A stretch of DNA of 64,000 nucleotides. It comes from Chloroflexus sp. Y-396-1. GTDB lineage: Bacteria > Chloroflexota > Chloroflexia > Chloroflexales > Chloroflexaceae. Where the stretch lies: positions 3,634,633-3,698,632 of the forward strand of contig NZ_KI911784.1 of NCBI RefSeq assembly GCF_000516515.1, written 5' to 3'. The position numbers were made by a program, and so were the translations under genes. Under the pieces are notes generated by a model. That model did not search any database, was not told the DNA's origin, and saw only the letters and a list, made by a program, of their open reading frames with translations. This document shows, one piece after another, positions 20,107 to 29,988 of this stretch; positions within the stretch are counted from its first letter, which is position 1, and every line of letters starts with the position of its first letter.

Positions 20107-20183
20107 CGGGGCGTGGCTCAGCCTGGTAGAGCACCGCGTTTGGGACGCGGGGGTCGTGGGTTCAAATCCCTCCGCCCCGACCA
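20107..20183 (+). tRNA. tRNA-Pro (anticodon UGG)
   Basis: The acceptor stem CGGGGCG pairs with CGCCCCG, the discriminator is A and CCA is encoded. The anticodon stem CCGCG/CGCGG holds the loop TTTGGGA, giving anticodon TGG. The T arm has GGTTCAAATCC. All cloverleaf parts are intact. Confidence 0.95.
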
Positions 20184-20201
20184 CATTTGCCAAGTGGCAA
20201 T

Positions 20202-20226
20202 GACCGCCGGCCGCAATCCGGCGGTC
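20202..20226 (+). terminator. Terminator after tRNA-Pro
   Basis: The perfect 9-bp stem GACCGCCGG/CCGGCGGTC with a 7-nt loop is followed by TTTG. It separates the tRNA from the response-regulator gene, 18 bases upstream of that gene's ATG. Confidence 0.75.
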
Positions 20227-20244
20227 TTTGTATGTGGAGTGGCT

Positions 20245-20943
20245 ATGGCGACAGTTCTGATCATTGAAGATGAGACAACACTGGCCGAGACGTTGCGCTA
20301 CAACCTTGAACGTGAAGGGTATAGCGTCATTGTTGCCGCTGATGGGGTGCAGGGTCTCGACCGTGCGCGTCGTGATCAGCCTGATCTCGTCGTGCTCGAT
20401 ATTATGCTGCCGCGCCTCGATGGCTTTTCGGTCTGCCGTATCCTGCGTCAAGAGAGTGATGTTCCCATCATTATGCTCACTGCTCGTCAGGATGAGGTGG
20501 ATCGGATTGCCGGTCTTGAACTGGGCGCCGATGATTATATGAGCAAGCCATTCAGTCTTGGCGAGTTTCTGGCTCGTGTACGGGCTATTCTGCGACGAAG
20601 TGAACGGCAGCCGCATTCGATTGTGCGTGAAATCTTCGAGGCAGGAGCCATTCGAGTGGATACTAGTAGTCGGCGGGCATGGCGCAATGGTCAGGAACTC
20701 AATCTGCCACAGAAAGAGTTCGATCTGCTTACCTGCCTGATGCGTAATCGGGGAATTGCCCTCACTCGTGATCTCTTGCTCGAACGGGTCTGGGGACAGG
20801 ATTTCATCGGCGATAGTCGAACTGTTGACGTACATATCCGCTGGTTACGCGAGAAGATTGAGCCAGACCCCAGCAAGCCGACCTACATCCAGACAGTACG
20901 TGGAGTTGGCTACCGGTTTGAACCTCCAACCGACGAAGTGTAA
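20245..20943 (+). CDS. OmpR/PhoB-family response regulator
   Basis: A 232-residue transcription factor. The receiver domain (1-120) has the acidic pair in IEDETT, the phospho-acceptor Asp in DLVVLDIMLPRLDG and the Lys in MSKPFS. A winged-helix DNA-binding domain follows (130-228), with the recognition region TVDVHIRWLREKIEPDP and the wing TVRGVGYRF. It is paired with the kinase that starts eight bases after its stop. The layout resembles PhoB/PhoR, but no phosphate transport genes are nearby. ATG at 20245 has TGGAG upstream. An open frame continuing upstream through the tRNA gene is an artefact. Confidence 0.92.
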   Translation: MATVLIIEDETTLAETLRYNLEREGYSVIVAADGVQGLDRARRDQPDLVVLDIMLPRLDGFSVCRILRQESDVPIIMLTARQDEVDRIAGLELGADDYMSKPFSLGEFLARVRAILRRSERQPHSIVREIFEAGAIRVDTSSRRAWRNGQELNLPQKEFDLLTCLMRNRGIALTRDLLLERVWGQDFIGDSRTVDVHIRWLREKIEPDPSKPTYIQTVRGVGYRFEPPTDEV

Positions 20944-22595: not shown

Positions 22596-24116
22596 TCAGA
22601 CGTTTTGCTCGTCTGATGCCGGCAATGTAAACCACACGAGCGTTCCTTGATTAAGTGTACTCTCCACCCCAATCGTACCACCGTGGGCTTCGACCAATCC
22701 CTTCGCAATAGACAGGCCAAGCCCGGCATTACCACCGGTTCGTTCGCGCGCTGGATCAGCTCGATAGAAACGCTCGAAGAGATGCGGGAGATGCTCAGGG
22801 GAAACGCCACAACCGGTATCACGCACGCTCAAACGGACATTCCTACCGACTAGTTCTGCACTGATCGTAATTACACCACCAGCGGGAGTATAACGAAGGG
22901 CATTATCGATCAGGATCAGCAATACTTGACGTAATCGATCAGGGTCGGCGTTGACAATCCCGGCTGCGTGATTGAGATTCACCGTAATGCTGCGCTCTTC
23001 ACCCAACCGACTCACGTGGCGGTGCAGTTCGCTCAGGAAATCTCTGAGGTCAATCCTTTGTCGTTGGAGGGTTAATGCCCCACTATCAAGCCGCGAGAGG
23101 GTTAGTAGATCATCGACCAGTCGGCGCATATGATCACTCTCACTCAGGATGTCGCTCAGCAATTCACGGTGATCGTCATCGGTTGCACTACGCAGAGCAA
23201 CTTCGGCACTGGCGCGAATCAATGTTAGTGGTGCACGCAGTTCATGGCTGGCACTAGCAATAAAGCGTAACTGGCGTGCCCAGGCGTCTTCTGCGGGCCG
23301 CAGGGCGCGTCCGGCTAACCACCAGCCCGCGATACCGATCACGATAGCGCCGACAAAACCAAAGCTGACAAGACCGATCATCAGTTGATTGAGTACCTGC
23401 TCTTGATCGGTGAGTAAACGTCCTAATTGTAGAGCCGCCGGACCATCAGAACGGGTCAGGCGGTAGGTGAGTAGTCTGATCCGTTGTCCGCTATTAACGG
23501 TAATGGTGCGTAAATCCGAGCCGTTCTGTAATGCGGCTGCCAATGCTTCTTTATCGGCAGTTATTGGTAGGGCTGCCGGATTGGGGTTGAAGAGAATCCG
23601 ACCCTGAGCGTCTAGTGGTAACACGAAGATGGAAGCTATCTCAGCATCGTAGGCTGCCGGTGGTGATGAGATACCGGTGATATGATCACGCTGGAGGTCC
23701 TTAATCTCGATACCGACAATCCGACCGCTGTATGCGTCAATGGTAATCTCGCTATCGTCACGAAGTTTCACCTCATAGAATCGGTCGTCTTCTTCTAGTT
23801 TAATACTCTTGATTTGACCACCACGTACCGATAAAGCGATCCGTCCTGCTTCTTCTGTAGTCAACATACGCGAACGAGTGATCCTACCTTCGTTGCGCAA
23901 GATCGACCAGTCGATGTCGGCTTCAGCGAGTTCGGGTGGGAGTGGTGCGTTCAGCGAATGAAACTCGTGCGCCATTTTATGGTAAAGAGCCAGATCGGTG
24001 GTGCGCTCAAAATAGCGGGCTACGATCACGTAAGTACCGCTAGCGACCAACGCAATAATCGCTACCGCAGCCAGAGCGTAAAACAGGGTAAACTGCCAGC
24101 GCAGAAGTTTAAACAC
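22596..24116 (-). CDS. Sensor histidine kinase with an extracytoplasmic PepSY domain
   Basis: A 506-residue kinase. TM1 spans about residues 10-33 and TM2 about 246-268. Between them lies a roughly 210-residue outside domain that contains a PepSY unit at about 86-136 (GGQIKSIKLEEDDRFYEVKL, then ITIDAYSGRIVGIE). The cytoplasmic part has HisKA (His near 291, SASHELRAPLTL) and HATPase boxes (IDNALRYTPAGG, VRDTGCGVS, NAGLGLSIAKGL). It starts with GTG at 24116 and overlaps the regulator gene by 8 bases. PepSY domains are also found twice in the divergent operon protein at 25488, so kinase and target share the same fold, which hints at direct sensing or feedback. Confidence 0.9.
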   Translation of the reverse strand: MFKLLRWQFTLFYALAAVAIIALVASGTYVIVARYFERTTDLALYHKMAHEFHSLNAPLPPELAEADIDWSILRNEGRITRSRMLTTEEAGRIALSVRGGQIKSIKLEEDDRFYEVKLRDDSEITIDAYSGRIVGIEIKDLQRDHITGISSPPAAYDAEIASIFVLPLDAQGRILFNPNPAALPITADKEALAAALQNGSDLRTITVNSGQRIRLLTYRLTRSDGPAALQLGRLLTDQEQVLNQLMIGLVSFGFVGAIVIGIAGWWLAGRALRPAEDAWARQLRFIASASHELRAPLTLIRASAEVALRSATDDDHRELLSDILSESDHMRRLVDDLLTLSRLDSGALTLQRQRIDLRDFLSELHRHVSRLGEERSITVNLNHAAGIVNADPDRLRQVLLILIDNALRYTPAGGVITISAELVGRNVRLSVRDTGCGVSPEHLPHLFERFYRADPARERTGGNAGLGLSIAKGLVEAHGGTIGVESTLNQGTLVWFTLPASDEQNV

Positions 24117-24789
24117 GGTCTACCTCCAGTCGATACCCAATACCACGTACTGTAACAATCGGATCAGGCTCGCCCGGAGCGTTGAGTTTCCGTCGCAGAT
24201 ACGAAATATAGACATCAACCATTTGGGGTTGTACGTCGTGCTCGAACGACCAGACATAATCGAGAATTTGTTGGCGCGTGAGCGTTTGGCCGGCGTTCCG
24301 CAGCAGATACTCAAGCAACCGCCACTCGGTCGGTGTTAGATCAAGCCGTCGCTCACCCCGTCGTGCTGTATAGGTGCGCAGATCGAGGACCAGCGCACCG
24401 GCGCGTAGTTCGTCGTTGCCCAGATTGGGGCTAAAACGCCGACCAAGGGCACGGATACGGGCCAGTAATTCTTCAAAGGCAAATGGTTTTACCAGGTAAT
24501 CGTCGGCGCCGCTTTCAAATCCCAGCACCTTATCTTCAATCTGTCCACGGGCCGTCAGTAAAAGCAATGCTGTTGGTAAACGGGCTGCCCGTACAGCACG
24601 ACAAATTGATGGACCATCACGGCCCGGTAGCATCCAATCGATAATGGCTACATCGTAAGTGCCCTGCAATAGCAGATCAAGCCCACTCTCACCGTCATAC
24701 GCGACATCAACGGTATGTCGTTCGTCGCGCAAGACACGCTCAATCAGACGGGCCAATCGTTTGTCATCTTCTACCACTAAAATCCGCAC
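24109..24789 (-). CDS. OmpR-family response regulator partner of the PepSY kinase
   Basis: A 226-residue regulator. The receiver has VVEDDKRLARL at the start, the phospho-acceptor Asp in VAIIDWMLPGRDG and Lys in LVKPFAFEE. The C-terminal winged helix has LTPTEWRLLEYLLRN and the wing TVRGIGYRLEVDRV. It is the first gene of a two-gene unit with the kinase and is divergent from the heme/PepSY/ApbE operon with a 187-bp shared regulatory region. Two pairs of 11-bp-spaced direct repeats in that region fit binding by this family. Its closest functional analogues are QseB/PmrA-type regulators, judged from layout only. Confidence 0.92.
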   Translation of the reverse strand: MRILVVEDDKRLARLIERVLRDERHTVDVAYDGESGLDLLLQGTYDVAIIDWMLPGRDGPSICRAVRAARLPTALLLLTARGQIEDKVLGFESGADDYLVKPFAFEELLARIRALGRRFSPNLGNDELRAGALVLDLRTYTARRGERRLDLTPTEWRLLEYLLRNAGQTLTRQQILDYVWSFEHDVQPQMVDVYISYLRRKLNAPGEPDPIVTVRGIGYRLEVDRV

Positions 24790-24873
24790 GGGCTACTCCC
24801 CAAGACGATCTTTTGGCAAACAACGCCAGCACGCTGAGTCATTGTATCTCTATTTGGTCATACCGCACGAATC

Positions 24874-24921
24874 TTGGAAAAAGATTGGAAATCATCGCTG
24901 TCATTTTAAGACACTTTTGAG
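24874..24921 (+). promoter_or_regulatory. Candidate response-regulator binding site: two 11-bp-period direct repeats
   Basis: TTGGAAA occurs at 24874-24880 and 24885-24891, and TTTTAAG/TTTTGAG at 24904-24910 and 24915-24921. Each pair is spaced by 11 bp, one helical turn, as expected for tandem binding of OmpR/PhoB-type dimers. They lie between the divergent regulator and the operon start at 24977. Confidence 0.5.
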
Positions 24922-24976
24922 AGAACGTCGCTACTCTGAGGGGCGTAGACGGCAATCAATGATGAAAGGAACGACA

Positions 24977-25441
24977 ATGCTCAAACAACTCTTCCGACCG
25001 CGTAATGTATTCATCGGGCTAGGGACAATCTTCATCATCATGCAAGTGGTGCCGGTCTGGGCCTGGCAGACGAATCCACCGGTGCTGAATGATGTTGCCT
25101 GGACAACACCAGAAGCGGCAAGTATTGCCCGCCGCGCTTGCTACGATTGTCACAGTAACGAAACGGTCTGGCCGTGGTACAGCAAGATTGCCCCTGCTTC
25201 TTGGCTGATTACCTACGACGTGATCAAAGGGCGAAATGAGTTGAATTTCTCGCTCCCCTTGCGTGAGCCGGCTGAACTAGCTAAGGAGATCGCTGAAGTG
25301 GTGCGAGAGGGCGAAATGCCGCCACGTCAGTATCTGATCCTGCACCCTGAAGCTCGGCTCTCGCCGACCGACATTCAGGCATTGATCAGCGGTATACCTG
25401 GCGGCGCCGGTCTTGAATTTGGTGAACGCGACGATGATTAG
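24977..25441 (+). CDS. Membrane-anchored heme-binding (CxxCH) protein
   Basis: A 154-residue protein. One N-terminal hydrophobic segment (FIGLGTIFIIMQVVPVW, about residues 11-28) anchors or exports it. A c-type heme motif CYDCH follows near residue 56, in RRACYDCHSNETVWPWYSKI, which matches the Haem_bd family of small exported cytochromes. A WPWY cluster and the later EGEMPPRQYLILHPEARL are also typical. ATG at 24977 is chosen because AAAGGA lies six bases upstream; two earlier ATG codons at 24959 and 24962 overlap that site. It is the first gene of the operon and is likely controlled by the divergent two-component system. Confidence 0.85.
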   Translation: MLKQLFRPRNVFIGLGTIFIIMQVVPVWAWQTNPPVLNDVAWTTPEAASIARRACYDCHSNETVWPWYSKIAPASWLITYDVIKGRNELNFSLPLREPAELAKEIAEVVREGEMPPRQYLILHPEARLSPTDIQALISGIPGGAGLEFGERDDD

Positions 25442-25487
25442 TTAGTTTTGCTCCTTAAGTAGATCAAAATTCTGTGGAGGTTTCGCT

Positions 25488-26372
25488 ATGAATCGCACAA
25501 TGTTCCTTATCGCGGCAACCCTGACGGCGTTTGTGCTGGTCGTTATTGGTGGTGTGGTCAGTCGGATTAGTACGACATCAGCCCCTGAGCCGGTACCTAC
25601 CGAGATTGTGGTTGAAACGACGCCGGTGGTTGTTCCAGCCCTCGATCCTACAGCAGAAGCCCTTCTGCGCGAGCGCGAAGCAGCGTATCAGGCTGCATTG
25701 GCTGAAGCTAATCGGCGGTTGGCTGAAGCTAACCAACAGTTGAATATCGCACAACGTGAACTAAACGAAATGGCGGCCCAGGAATCTGCCCCGGCGCCAG
25801 CAGTGCCAGCGCCTGCCGCTCCGGCACCAGCAGCGCCAGCGCCTGCCGCTCCGGCACCAGTAGTGCCAGCGCCTGTTGCCCCGGCGCCAGCAGTGCCAGC
25901 GCCTGCCGCCCCGCCAGCGCCTGTCTACGCCGTCTCACCTAAACAGGCTCAGGCTATCGCGCAAGCTAATGCTCAGGGTGCTACCCTGATCCGTCCTCCA
26001 GAGCTGGTTAGTCTACAGGGTGTGCCTGCCTATGAAGTGATATTTGACCGCGGTGCAATATACGTTGATGCTCAGACCGGGGCGGTTCTGGCAAACACGA
26101 TCAGTACCGGTACTCAGGCTGCCAATGCGATTAACGCAGATCAGGCAATCGCAGCCGCTGTTGCTTACATGGGCGGTGGAACGGTTGCGGAGGTGAAGCG
26201 TGAATACGAGCACGGTGTAGATGTTTATGAAGTCAAGTTTACTGATGGCAGTGAGGTGTATGTTGATGCGTATAGCGGCCAGGTTGTGTACGCTAAGGTG
26301 AAAAATAATGATGATGGCAAGAAAAAGGACGAGAAAGATGACGATCACGACAAGGACAAGAAGGATGATTAG
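25488..26372 (+). CDS. Membrane protein with coiled coil, Pro/Ala stalk and two PepSY domains
   Basis: A 294-residue protein. A TM anchor spans residues 5-25, an Ala/Glu-rich coiled coil 55-98, and a Pro-Ala repeat stalk 101-146 made of PAPAAPAPV-like units. Two PepSY-like units follow at about 151-206 (ending IYVDAQTGAVLANTI) and 210-272 (ending VYVDAYSGQVVYAKV), then a Lys/Asp tail. By topology the PepSY part lies outside the membrane. PepSY domains are linked to peptidase inhibition and, in other redox clusters, to electron-transfer membrane proteins. TGAV lacks the Thr/Ser that ApbE modifies in FMN-binding domains, so it is not an obvious flavinylation target. A clear ribosome binding site (GTGGAGG) precedes ATG 25488. 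Confidence 0.82.
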   Translation: MNRTMFLIAATLTAFVLVVIGGVVSRISTTSAPEPVPTEIVVETTPVVVPALDPTAEALLREREAAYQAALAEANRRLAEANQQLNIAQRELNEMAAQESAPAPAVPAPAAPAPAAPAPAAPAPVVPAPVAPAPAVPAPAAPPAPVYAVSPKQAQAIAQANAQGATLIRPPELVSLQGVPAYEVIFDRGAIYVDAQTGAVLANTISTGTQAANAINADQAIAAAVAYMGGGTVAEVKREYEHGVDVYEVKFTDGSEVYVDAYSGQVVYAKVKNNDDGKKKDEKDDDHDKDKKDD

Positions 26373-26408
26373 AACGAGGTAGCAATTGCTTGCCGAAGGA
26401 GCACGACG

Positions 26409-26870
26409 ATGAATCAGACCCGAAAACCCATGCGTGCCGATGTCTCAGGATTAAAGTGGGCGATCAGCACCGCAGCCCTCGCAGCGACGATTGGTGGTTG
26501 GGGATGGCTCACAGCACAGAATCCACCGGAAGTCGCTATCGCCGCGCCACAAATCGTTGTCCAGCCGCCGGCGATTGAGCGACAACCGTTGCCGCCATGG
26601 CTAACTGACAATCCAACACTGCCGGTGCTACCAACTGTTGTGCCGCTAAACATTCCGGCCCGCGATCAGGTAGCGGCTCCAGCGCCCGCGCTAGCGGCTC
26701 CAGCGATTCCGCCACCCGCACCAGCAGCTCCGGCGGCTCCGCCACCCGCACCAGCAGTTCCGGCGGCTCCGGCGGCTCCGCCACCCGCGCCAGCAGCTCC
26801 GGCATTGCGTGAAGTCACTATTCCGGCACCGGCACCAGCTCCGGCTGCTCGGACCCGATCATCACGTTGA
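26409..26870 (+). CDS. Pro/Ala-rich single-pass membrane protein
   Basis: A 153-residue protein not assignable to a named family. A hydrophobic segment at about residues 15-33 (LKWAISTAALAATIGGWGWL) is followed by a short linker and a long PAAPPPAP-type low-complexity region to the C terminus, which ends in basic residues (ARTRSSR). The stalk composition matches that of the PepSY protein before it, which suggests the two share a location and perhaps contact each other. AAGGAG precedes ATG 26409. It lies 36 bases after the PepSY gene and 13 before apbE, inside the operon. Confidence 0.75.
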   Translation: MNQTRKPMRADVSGLKWAISTAALAATIGGWGWLTAQNPPEVAIAAPQIVVQPPAIERQPLPPWLTDNPTLPVLPTVVPLNIPARDQVAAPAPALAAPAIPPPAPAAPAAPPPAPAVPAAPAAPPPAPAAPALREVTIPAPAPAPAARTRSSR

Positions 26871-26883
26871 GGAGACACCGGCG

Positions 26884-27825
26884 ATGCAACAGCTCAGCTT
26901 TTGGGCGATGGGTTCAACGATAACGATTGTGATCGATAGCGATGAAGCGAACGCTCGTAGTGTATTTGCAGGCGCTTACCGGATATTTCGTACCTACGAG
27001 CGCATATTAAGCCGCTTCCAGCCGCACAGTGACCTGAATGCGCTCAATCGTTGCGCTGGACGTGGGCCACGGCGGGTTGGACAGACACTCTGGCGAGCGT
27101 TGCAACACGCGCTGTGGATGGCATATCGTAGTGATGGTCTGGTGACGCCGGCTGTGGGTGAGGCGCTGCATACTGCCGGTTATGATCGCGATTTTCGTCA
27201 GATGGCCGGTACATTAACAGCCGATATAAAAGCGCCCTCGCTGGTGCCTGACTGGCGTCTGATACAGTGCGATCCACGTCGCCGTACCGTCTCTCTCCCT
27301 GCCGGTATGCGCCTTGACCTGGGGGGGAGTGCGAAAGGATGGACGGCGACGCTGATTGCCCGTCGCCTAGGACGTCGTTATCCGACATTGGTGGATGCCG
27401 GTGGCGACATTGCCCTCAGTGGCCCACGTCGTGACGGTTCACCCTGGCCGATTGAAGTGGCCGATCCGCTTCATCCTGATCGGGGTCTCGCATTGCTCAT
27501 GCTGAGACGAGGTGGGGTGGCTACGTCGGGGGTCGATTATCGACGCTGGATTCACCATGGGAAGTGGCAGCACCATCTCATCGATCCGCGCACCGGTGAT
27601 CCGGCGAGCACCGATCTCCTCACCGCGACGGTGATTGCACCGACGCTGTCGCTGGCAGAAATGGCCGCCAAGGTGGTATTGATCCTCGGCGCCGAGGCAG
27701 GCTGGCATTGGTTAGCCGATCAACCCAATATGGCCGGGTTACTGGTTCATCGCGATGGTCAGATCATCCGCACCCCAAATGTTGACCGTTATTGCTGGCA
27801 ATCATCAATGTCAGTGAGTCGGTAA
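26884..27825 (+). CDS. apbE: FAD:protein FMN transferase
   Basis: A 313-residue ApbE-family enzyme, which attaches FMN from FAD to a Thr or Ser of target proteins of extracytoplasmic redox chains. Motifs are complete: LSRFQPHSDLNALNR, LDLGGSAKGWTATLI, LVDAGGDIALSG, VATSGVDYRRW and HHLIDPRTGDPASTDLLTATV. No signal peptide is seen with ATG 26884 (after GAGGAGA), unlike most ApbE proteins, which are exported or lipid-anchored. No protein with the usual target motif (SGAT/TGAT type) is visible in this operon, so the target is elsewhere or unusual. Confidence 0.92.
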   Translation: MQQLSFWAMGSTITIVIDSDEANARSVFAGAYRIFRTYERILSRFQPHSDLNALNRCAGRGPRRVGQTLWRALQHALWMAYRSDGLVTPAVGEALHTAGYDRDFRQMAGTLTADIKAPSLVPDWRLIQCDPRRRTVSLPAGMRLDLGGSAKGWTATLIARRLGRRYPTLVDAGGDIALSGPRRDGSPWPIEVADPLHPDRGLALLMLRRGGVATSGVDYRRWIHHGKWQHHLIDPRTGDPASTDLLTATVIAPTLSLAEMAAKVVLILGAEAGWHWLADQPNMAGLLVHRDGQIIRTPNVDRYCWQSSMSVSR

Positions 27826-27861
27826 TCGCTCTGACATCAATTCAAATGGAGGACCAAGCGT

Positions 27862-28665
27862 ATGAGTGTGCATCCAGCAACAAATGATCAGCCGCTACAG
27901 ACTGGACAGGATAATCAAGTCAAGGCATCGCCACGGCCAGCCCGCCCGCAACGCACGATGACGGCCAATCCAGAACTGGTCGATCTTCCACCAGCAATGT
28001 CGCTTTCAACCCTCTTCATTCTGCTGGTCGGTGCGGTACTGGGTGCATTTGGCGCCGTGATGGTATTACCTGCGTGGGCACCCAACCTCAGTGCCTCCCT
28101 GTTAGGCGAGGAACCCAAGGCTTACTGGTATCTCTCCCGCAGTAGTGCGGTCGCTGCTTATGGACTGCTTTGGTTATCGATGGTGTTTGGTCTCTTGATG
28201 ACTAACCGGATGGCAAAGTTGTGGCCGGGTGGACCGGGGGCGTTCGATCTGCACCAGCACACCAGTTTGTTGGGGTTGGCCTTTGCTATCTTCCACGCCT
28301 TGATCTTGCTCGGCGATCGTTACATTAGCGCAACTCTCGAGCAGGTGCTTACCCCATTTGGATACAGCGGCTACGAACCATTCTGGGTGGGGTTGGGGCA
28401 ATTGGCCCTCTACGGCATGGCAATCATCAGCTTCAGTTTCTACGTCAAGCAATGGATCGGACGTACTCTCTGGCGGATTATCCACTTCCTTAGCTTTGTG
28501 ATCTGGTTGCTGAGCCTATTACACGCCTTGTTCAGCGGCAGCGATACCGACCTTCTTATTGGATGGTACTGGTTTAGCGGTGGGAGTGTGCTTTTCCTGA
28601 CCATATATCGGGTGTTAGTATCGTTTCAGCCCGCAAAACCACGGCCATCGCGCAACGAAGGATGA
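27862..28665 (+). CDS. Ferric-reductase-like transmembrane cytochrome b
   Basis: A 267-residue membrane protein of the ferric reductase/MsrQ-like type. About six hydrophobic helices follow a 45-residue polar N terminus. Likely heme-b ligands are His residues in DLHQHTSLLGLAFAIFHAL and in RIIHFLSFVIWLLSLLHAL, two per helix pair on opposite sides of the membrane. There is no FAD or NAD(P)H domain at the C terminus, so electrons must come from or go to a partner, plausibly the CxxCH protein or a flavinylated protein of this operon. AGGA lies ahead of ATG 27862. It is the last gene of the operon. Confidence 0.85.
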   Translation: MSVHPATNDQPLQTGQDNQVKASPRPARPQRTMTANPELVDLPPAMSLSTLFILLVGAVLGAFGAVMVLPAWAPNLSASLLGEEPKAYWYLSRSSAVAAYGLLWLSMVFGLLMTNRMAKLWPGGPGAFDLHQHTSLLGLAFAIFHALILLGDRYISATLEQVLTPFGYSGYEPFWVGLGQLALYGMAIISFSFYVKQWIGRTLWRIIHFLSFVIWLLSLLHALFSGSDTDLLIGWYWFSGGSVLFLTIYRVLVSFQPAKPRPSRNEG

Positions 28666-28788
28666 AACGTTTCGAGAAGAGAGATCACAACTCAGGTCAC
28701 CCGAATTACACTTGTTCCAGCAGACTGCTCTCGCTACACTGACAACATGGTTGCGCAAGGAAGCCCAATCGCTACGAAGGAGTGCGCA

Positions 28789-29988
28789 ATGACGACACTC
28801 AATCATCCTCATATAGAAGTCGGTGTACTGTCTCCAGCAGAGTTGTATGCCGAATTGTCAAGCGAACAACCACTGTTCATCCTCGATGTGCGCAATGAAC
28901 AGGAATTTGCCCGCAATCGGGTACGTGGACGGCAACCTATTCCAACGCTCAATATTCCTTATTTCGAGTTTATTGAAGACGAAGAGGCGGCTATTGCACG
29001 AGTACCGACTGATCTGCCGCTGACCGTCATTTGCGCCAAAGAGGGTTCAGCGCAGTATGTGGCTGAATTGTGCGCTGCTCGTGGCATAACCGTCCGTTAC
29101 CTACTCGGTGGATTCAGCGCCTGGCGCGATTTTTATGCCGTACACGAGGTAGTTAATGCCAGTTGGGGACGAATCATTCAGCTTGTCCGACCGGCTCGTG
29201 GCGACCTCAGCTACGTGATCATCAGTGCCGGAGAGGCGGCAGTGATCGATCCAGGTCACCACATTCATCTGTATCAAGAGATCGTCGCTAACGCTCAGGC
29301 TGACCTCACGCGGGTCTTGTTAACCCACCTCACCGCCGGACGGGTATCAGGTGGGGCGAGTTTGACCAATACCCGTCATACGCTGCTCTATATGCACCCT
29401 TACGATGCAATCCACCCACGGACATTGCTGCCAGCTCAGTTTCGGTATCAGCCACTGCTCGGCGGTGAACGACTACCACTCGGTCATGTGCTGATTGAAG
29501 CGCATTGGTTCCCCGGTCATACGCCTGGTCATCTGATGTATCGTATTATTTCGCCGCTTGGTGAGCGCTTCCTGTTAACCGGTGATGCACTCTTGATCGG
29601 GGGATGCGGTCGTACCGATCTGGGTGGTCATGCTCTGGAGTGGACTGCGCTGCTCTACCATAGTTTGCAAACGGTTCTGCCTGTGCTAGTGGACGATCAA
29701 ACGCTTATCTTGCCATCGTCTACGATTGGGCTAACCGAGGCGCGGATCGATGGTGTGATAGCCGCTCATTTTGCCTATCTCCGTTCAATGCACCCAGCAT
29801 TGCAAGTTGACAGTTCGGCGGCGCTTCTCCCGCTTGTGGCCGCCACTGCGTCGGCAATACCGGCGAGTATTGATACATTCTGGCGCGTGAATTTGGGTTT
29901 ACAGGAGCTTTCGCTTGATGACGCGAATGAGCTGGAGACAGAACCTTCATCGTGCGTGTTTCTTCATCCCTTGACCAGCAGTTGTTGA
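28789..29988 (+). CDS. Rhodanese fused to a metallo-beta-lactamase-like domain with a damaged metal site
   Basis: A 399-residue fusion. The N-terminal rhodanese domain (12-118) has FILDVRNEQEF and a loop with Cys82 in ICAKEGSAQ. The C-terminal domain (125-345) resembles persulfide dioxygenase or glyoxalase II: HWFPGHTPGH and LLTGDALLIGGCGRTDLGG are intact. The first metal motif, however, should read HxHxDH and is HLTAGR (180-185), so metal binding is likely lost or altered. The domain order is the reverse of the common MBL-rhodanese fusions. ATG 28789 follows GAAGGAG. It may be a sulfur-transfer protein rather than an oxygenase. Confidence 0.85.
   Translation: MTTLNHPHIEVGVLSPAELYAELSSEQPLFILDVRNEQEFARNRVRGRQPIPTLNIPYFEFIEDEEAAIARVPTDLPLTVICAKEGSAQYVAELCAARGITVRYLLGGFSAWRDFYAVHEVVNASWGRIIQLVRPARGDLSYVIISAGEAAVIDPGHHIHLYQEIVANAQADLTRVLLTHLTAGRVSGGASLTNTRHTLLYMHPYDAIHPRTLLPAQFRYQPLLGGERLPLGHVLIEAHWFPGHTPGHLMYRIISPLGERFLLTGDALLIGGCGRTDLGGHALEWTALLYHSLQTVLPVLVDDQTLILPSSTIGLTEARIDGVIAAHFAYLRSMHPALQVDSSAALLPLVAATASAIPASIDTFWRVNLGLQELSLDDANELETEPSSCVFLHPLTSSC

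Follow-up and report, generated by a model that had tools for sequence, protein, structure and literature searches.

A PepSY, ApbE and cytochrome b module of Chloroflexus and a candidate C-terminal acceptor for its FMN transferase

Organization of the locus

The window analysed here, a stretch of 64,000 nucleotides from Chloroflexus sp. Y-396-1 (contig NZ_KI911784.1), contains a locus in which a two-component system is divergent from five closely packed plus-strand genes. These encode an exported CxxCH heme protein (Haem_bd), a two-PepSY “stalk” protein, a Pro/Ala-rich membrane protein (the “tail protein”), the flavin adenine dinucleotide (FAD):protein flavin mononucleotide (FMN) transferase ApbE, and a cytochrome b, CytB (Table 1). 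The gaps between the five genes are 46, 36, 13 and 36 bp, and the genes of the regulator and the kinase overlap by 8 bp. The genome, that of a Chloroflexus, forms one contig of 4.89 Mb with a completeness of 99.98%. All of the genes named in a first-pass annotation of this DNA are present, and the gene calls and Pfam matches confirm the content, order and spacing that it described. The range it gave, 24109-28665, does enclose the regulator and the five genes but leaves out the kinase, position 24109 being the end of the regulator gene.

Table 1. Features of the locus, in window coordinates.
Feature	Position	Strand	Evidence or remark
Sensor histidine kinase with PepSY domain	22596-24116	-	Pfam PepSY 6.8e-7, HisKA 1.5e-17, HATPase_c 1e-31
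OmpR/PhoB-type response regulator	24109-24789	-	Pfam Response_reg 1.4e-24, Trans_reg_C 5e-27
Direct repeat TTGGAA-N5-TTGGAA, candidate regulator site	24874-24890	+	Divergent promoter
Exported CxxCH heme protein (Haem_bd)	24962-25441	+	Pfam PF14376 2.4e-34
Membrane-anchored two-PepSY stalk protein, acidic C-terminal tail	25488-26372	+	Pfam PF03413 1.9e-18, two stretches
Tail protein: one transmembrane helix, Pro/Ala linker, C-terminal TRSSR	26409-26870	+	Proposed ApbE substrate; conserved helix and tail
Codons of C-terminal TRSSR, proposed FMN acceptor peptide	26853-26867	+	Alignment and codon analysis
ApbE (FAD:protein FMN transferase)	26884-27825	+	Pfam PF02424 4.2e-51
Six-transmembrane diheme cytochrome b, ferric reductase/NOX/STEAP/MsrQ type, without FAD/NAD domain	27862-28665	+	Four-His pattern

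Conservation of the module

ApbE orthologues occur in 31 of the 41 genomes of the family, and a reading of their neighbourhoods found that the order of the window, in which the kinase and regulator diverge from an operon of Haem_bd (where present), PepSY protein, tail protein, ApbE and CytB, recurs throughout the family, the kinase orthologue being divergent from the operon at most of the loci compared. When 84,980 species genomes were scanned with the cytochrome as seed, Roseiflexus, Oscillochloris, Thermoflexus and many Anaerolineae proved to share this order. Not every locus includes Haem_bd, an optional component that many relatives lack. From the conserved order and divergence in the family and in the wider Chloroflexota, we therefore conclude that the module is real; the search for the gene order in other Chloroflexota which the first-pass annotation had proposed finds it conserved well beyond chance.

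The members of the module also occur together across genomes. In the class, 158 genomes were tallied without correction for relatedness: 74 encode ApbE together with the cytochrome and 69 lack both, while the cytochrome is without ApbE in 12 and ApbE without the cytochrome in 3. The family has 28 genomes of good quality, and the trio of ApbE, CytB and tail protein is complete in 25 of them and wholly missing from the other 3. Genus g16 has a single ApbE of the module type, standing apart from one to four CytB genes, most of which adjoin tail proteins. Loss of the system was considered as an explanation of this stand-alone ApbE and was rejected, because the tail and cytochrome genes sit elsewhere in the genome. 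In two metagenome-assembled genomes the ApbE frame is broken into pieces (L188, 2947-3996; L231, 3039-3970), which may reflect either sequencing error or decay.

ApbE and the absence of known targets

The genome encodes only one ApbE, whose PF02424 match is near full length (1-263 of 266), whose homologues in the PDB include TM1553, and which keeps the HHLIDP and TSG motifs. ApbE transfers FMN to the last Ser or Thr of the motif [ST]GA[ST] (PMC8238504; PMC12052999), and a survey of flavinylation found that about 4% of genomes (670) carry ApbE without a known substrate (PMC8238504). In the genome of the window, a search for FMN_bind, NqrB/RnfD, DUF2271 and DUF3570 found all four to be absent, so the absence of FMN_bind pointed out in the first-pass annotation extends to the entire 4.89 Mb. 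Genomes that do own FMN_bind have a second ApbE, of the Asp/Thr (D..T) type, which adjoins FMN_bind and has no tail protein beside it. At L212 (1209-2252) ApbE carries an in-frame fusion to a helix resembling the one in the tail protein, either a natural fusion, which would anchor ApbE in the membrane, or an assembly artefact.

The remaining proteins of the module offer no conventional target. The canonical [ST]GA[ST] was looked for in the stalk, Haem_bd, the tail protein and the cytochrome and is found in none of them in the genus, and the few chance matches elsewhere in module proteins at the family's loci fall in transmembrane or linker segments. The PepSY stalk was rejected as a flavin carrier because it has no such acceptor site in the genus.

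A candidate acceptor motif in the tail protein

The tail protein matched no family in a Pfam search, and its structural model contains one main helix (residues 13-36) and no other fold. The intact proteins encoded between PepSY and ApbE, or beside CytB, share an architecture of N-terminal helix, low-complexity linker and C-terminal motif. In aligned tail proteins from Chloroflexaceae a GW pair within the region of the helix is invariant, and the linker, rich in Pro/Ala or, in Anaerolineae, in Gly, cannot be aligned between species, while the C-terminus is conserved. The segment preceding the helix carries a net charge of +3.2 and the one following it a net charge of -0.8; the N-side is the more positive in 53 of 56 tail proteins, so the C-terminus is predicted to lie outside.

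The tails of Chloroflexia mostly end in TRSSR, with the variants TQSSR, TKSSR, THSSR and SRSSR, and those of Anaerolineae in TGSSK, TGSS, TGGS, TSSS, TTSS or TQSS and, in L217, in TGAS, which fits the core acceptor motif [ST]GA[ST]. Because it is the last Ser/Thr of this motif that ApbE modifies, the tails look like relaxed acceptor motifs. When the TRSSR of the window is set against D-x-x-[ST]-G-A-[ST], the match is confined to the first Ser/Thr and the final Ser, and the Asp is lacking in the relatives' tails too, though some of them reach TGSS and TGAS.

The association of this ending with ApbE was evaluated with the pattern [ST]x[AGST][ST] followed by 0-2 residues to the C-terminus. When open reading frames (ORFs) are chosen by hidden Markov model or by position, 57 of 60 distinct proteins fit the pattern, compared to 11 of 325 other module proteins. 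Since the profile used to pick many of the 60 itself covers the tail, more weight attaches to sets chosen by position only and to further loci. With position as the only criterion, all 8 Chloroflexota proteins fit, compared to 0.5 expected under composition-matched shuffling, and the ORFs before ApbE do so at every one of 12 plasmid loci from other phyla, where 2.1 would be expected. A tail-type protein is also present at 17 of 20 additional loci, drawn from families of the class that are less closely related, and 15 of these proteins fit; the two exceptions end in TRQS and SRHS. The conservation is not one of nucleotides: the 56 tails of the TRSSR type are encoded by 46 different 15-mers, through synonymous codon variation, so the constraint acts on the protein. 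The tail is retained, moreover, where apbE is 100-280 bp distant or elsewhere in the genome, and no tail protein is annotated adjoining a mycobacterial plasmid FRD cytochrome that lacks ApbE.

Several tail proteins of genus g16 (L139, 5330-7024; L143, 4867-5151; L145, 5574-5876; L148, 5765-6058) share a segment like EWWQ(F/L)(D/T)F before an RSSR end. In L139 one cytochrome is flanked by two tail proteins, and in L234 two tail proteins with different linkers (ends TTTRSSR and TRSRSSR) lie around one cytochrome and one ApbE.

Cytochrome, stalk and regulation

The cytochrome (267 aa) has four invariant His residues, at positions 131, 145, 208 and 221, with spacings of 14 and 13. Four His at such spacing is the arrangement of the ferric reductase and NOX cytochromes. 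A Pfam search gave no match at E 0.01, PF01794 included; the Deinococcus counterpart scores 27.1 bits against PF01794, slightly below the cut-off of 28. The best Foldseek matches are STEAP2, STEAP1 and the bacterial NOX SpNOX (E 0.03-0.08, probability 1.0), and since the AlphaFold model from which they derive is a moderate one (predicted local distance difference test score, pLDDT, 65), they provide weak support. The earlier description of this protein as a ferric-reductase-like cytochrome b thus stands without a Pfam match, on the histidine spacing and on these weak resemblances. The cytochrome has no fused flavin or nicotinamide adenine dinucleotide (NAD) domain, and none is adjacent to it in Chloroflexus.

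The only PepSY family matched in the module is PF03413; no three-transmembrane PepSY protein (PF03929/PF16357) was found. The last 25 residues of the stalk homologues have a median of 48% Asp/Glu/His, compared to 12% in other module proteins, and this composition suggests that the acidic tail of the stalk binds cations.

The PepSY domain of the kinase (residues 85-137) is predicted to be extracytoplasmic. The direct repeat in the divergent promoter has a period of 11 bp, which is typical of OmpR/PhoB-type sites. Its exact 17-mer occurs once in the genome, where the only other near-matches are two with two mismatches each, and the repeat core is present in 17 of 36 distinct intergenic regions between regulator and operon, compared to 0.009 expected per 400 bp. 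Because the repeat is unique in the genome and lies in the divergent promoter, the two-component system is probably dedicated to the operon, with the repeat as the candidate site of its regulator. This uniqueness and the recurrence of the gene order across Chloroflexota support the first-pass view of the locus as one system with its own two-component switch.

Occurrence in other phyla

The same local arrangement was found in plasmid records from Actinomycetota, Bacillota, Pseudomonadota and Deinococcota. In Psychrobacter it comprises a kinase, a PepSY protein with an acidic tail, a tail protein (ending ARTRSSQ), ApbE, a cytochrome and a VIT iron transporter. Tail proteins end in TATRAS, TTTRAS and TSTRAS in Arthrobacter, RSAGS in Rhodococcus, TTKGS in Cnuibacter, RSGGS in Streptomyces, SKASGG in Mycolicibacterium, STRTS in Paenibacillus and RTRGS in Deinococcus; in Gordonia the ORF, which ends in VHTAAS, is unannotated as a gene, and Alicyclobacillus (SSASSP) is a less clear case. 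Genes for NuoF-like proteins and ferredoxin are added at several actinobacterial loci, and VIT neighbours occur in Psychrobacter, in Deinococcus and near one Rhodococcus locus. A Nonomuraea locus (L258), where the protein upstream ends in FTRGS, was excluded because that protein is a DUF2271 protein, and no tail was found at a DUF3570-type locus of Hymenobacter.

Neighbouring genes

Directly downstream of the cytochrome in the window lies a gene for a rhodanese and metallo-beta-lactamase protein (28747-29988); in several Chloroflexus genomes the cytochrome is likewise followed by a homologue, and none was seen in that place at other loci. Elsewhere in the window, a tRNA-Pro (TGG) at 20107-20183 overlaps the apparent start of a response-regulator ORF (20113-20943), and this response-regulator gene must therefore start later.

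Proposed mechanism and alternatives

Loci of this type have been linked with extracytoplasmic electron transfer, in line with what the first-pass annotation supposed. That annotation also held that the usual flavinylation scheme does not explain the module, and here it has to be revised, since the Pro/Ala-rich protein bears a strongly conserved, acceptor-like C-terminal motif which tracks ApbE. We consider it likely, on balance, that the module is a regulated membrane electron-transfer system whose flavin carrier is the tail protein, flavinylated by ApbE. ApbE would move FMN from FAD to a Ser in the C-terminal TRSSR, probably the last Ser of T-x-x-S, and the product would be a flavin on the flexible, unstructured tether of a single-helix membrane protein. 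This flavin would exchange electrons with the diheme six-transmembrane cytochrome b, and the tether would let it reach soluble or extracytoplasmic partners, among the latter the PepSY stalk and its acidic tail, the CxxCH protein and possibly ferric iron. The PepSY kinase and OmpR-type regulator would switch the operon through the direct-repeat site. We infer not only the flavinylation of the tail and its exact residue but also which way electrons flow, what donates and what finally accepts them, and what the signal is. In view of the VIT neighbours and the acidic stalk, ferric iron can reasonably be guessed as the acceptor, with iron reduction as the outcome.

Several observations weigh against this interpretation. 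Neither the Asp nor the Gly-Ala of the canonical motif is present in the TRSSR of the window, and the pattern is broken in two distinct tail proteins, one ending in TRPSGR (L045) and the other having RRTR after TRSSR (L208). Some of the Ser/Gly-rich plasmid proteins could fit the pattern by chance, with a probability of 0.3-0.45 each, and the loci share descent, so that the counts are not independent events. A contaminated and fragmented assembly (G001) has CytB and the tail protein with no ApbE detected. In the ApbE of the window and its module orthologues, Glu/Lys (AEMAAK) replaces the canonical Asp/Thr pair of the metal site. (In several actinobacterial relatives of this ApbE, Asn replaces the metal-site Asp.) Finally, ApbE has no signal peptide, yet the charges place the tail outside; either the tail is modified before translocation, or one of the two sequence-based predictions, the location of ApbE or the side of the tail, is wrong.

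If the side of the tail is the wrong prediction, then its C-terminus would be cytosolic, and its FMN would replace the cytosolic flavin domain of NOX/FRE enzymes, with a soluble reductase feeding electrons through it to the inner heme of the cytochrome. This alternative, which keeps the acceptor claim and reverses the side, would account for the lack of a visible signal peptide on ApbE in both module and plasmid loci, for a cytochrome without a flavin/NAD domain, and for the cytosolic NuoF-like and ferredoxin genes at actinobacterial loci; the charge bias across the helix speaks against it, and we regard it as doubtful, though a serious competitor. Somewhat less probable still is a docking role, in which the tail would bind cytochrome b or some other partner and ApbE would modify an undiscovered protein encoded elsewhere in the genome. 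The tail proteins of genus g16 adjoin CytB rather than ApbE, the FRD cytochrome is the other constant partner of the tail, and the conserved basic residues, an Arg at position 2 and another at the end, are foreign to the canonical motif, all of which a docking function would explain. It would leave ApbE without any of the four known target families searched for, however, and would not account for the variation of the tail toward the literature motif (TGSS, TGAS, TRAS), for the position of the tail gene directly before apbE in the plasmid loci, or for the lack of an annotated tail neighbour beside the plasmid FRD cytochrome without ApbE. That the conserved tail is an artefact at the level of DNA, such as an apbE ribosome-binding site overlapping the upstream 3' end, was rejected as extremely improbable given the codon variation and the tails distant from apbE, even though many Anaerolineae tail genes end at the apbE start codon and a Gly-rich linker is what GGAGG-like DNA would encode.

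Assuming that the tail protein is the substrate of ApbE, as we favour, it may represent more than a peculiarity of one operon. With rather less assurance than for the module itself, we think it probable that disordered, membrane-anchored “flavin-tail” proteins form a widespread and unrecognised class of ApbE substrates, present in at least five phyla, with a C-terminal FMN acceptor and no folded flavin domain; with an ApbE that has no signal peptide, the flavin would be attached before export, or the tail would be a cytosolic swinging arm for a NOX-type cytochrome. A literature search found no description of C-terminal or disordered natural substrates of ApbE, preprints and most subscription papers lying outside its reach. 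The proposal supplies a concrete candidate substrate class, in several phyla, for ApbE proteins without a known target. If it is true, bacteria would use FMN at the tip of a flexible tether as a mobile redox arm, a new mode of cofactor attachment, the acceptor motif of ApbE would be wider than has been thought, and the annotation of many loci of the “ferric reductase-like plus ApbE” kind would change.

Comparison with known systems

The nearest described relatives are the MsrQ-like flavinylation clusters, found mainly in Actinobacteria, which combine ApbE, FMN_bind and a PF01794 cytochrome (eLife 2021 e66878). As in these clusters, ApbE in the module adjoins a six-transmembrane diheme cytochrome resembling ferric reductases, and VIT or NuoF-like genes occur in the module's relatives; unlike them, the module has a disordered tail protein instead of FMN_bind, an ApbE without a signal peptide, and, in the window, a cytochrome with no PF01794 match at E 0.01. 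The PepSY-like flavinylation systems of the FoxB/VciB type (PF03929/PF16357 with DUF2271 and ApbE) also cluster PepSY with ApbE and have also been proposed to reduce iron, but the PepSY protein of the module is a PF03413 single-helix stalk without heme-binding transmembrane helices, and its genome has no DUF2271. The cytochrome itself shares with those of NOX, STEAP and MsrQ, members of the ferric reductase domain superfamily, the four His, their spacing and the six transmembrane helices, along with weak fold matches, and differs in that, in Chloroflexus, a flavin/NAD reductase domain is neither fused to it nor encoded next to it.

The closest parallel to the tail is an artificial one. In the flavin-tag, a seven-residue ApbE motif is fused to the terminus of a protein; such tags perform best at protein termini, and changes of the motif Asp have only minor effects (PMC12052999). 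A short terminal peptide would likewise suffice as the acceptor in the module, where the tail, which lacks the Asp and mostly the Gly-Ala of the tag, is a natural sequence that occupies the very C-terminal end of a membrane-anchored tether.

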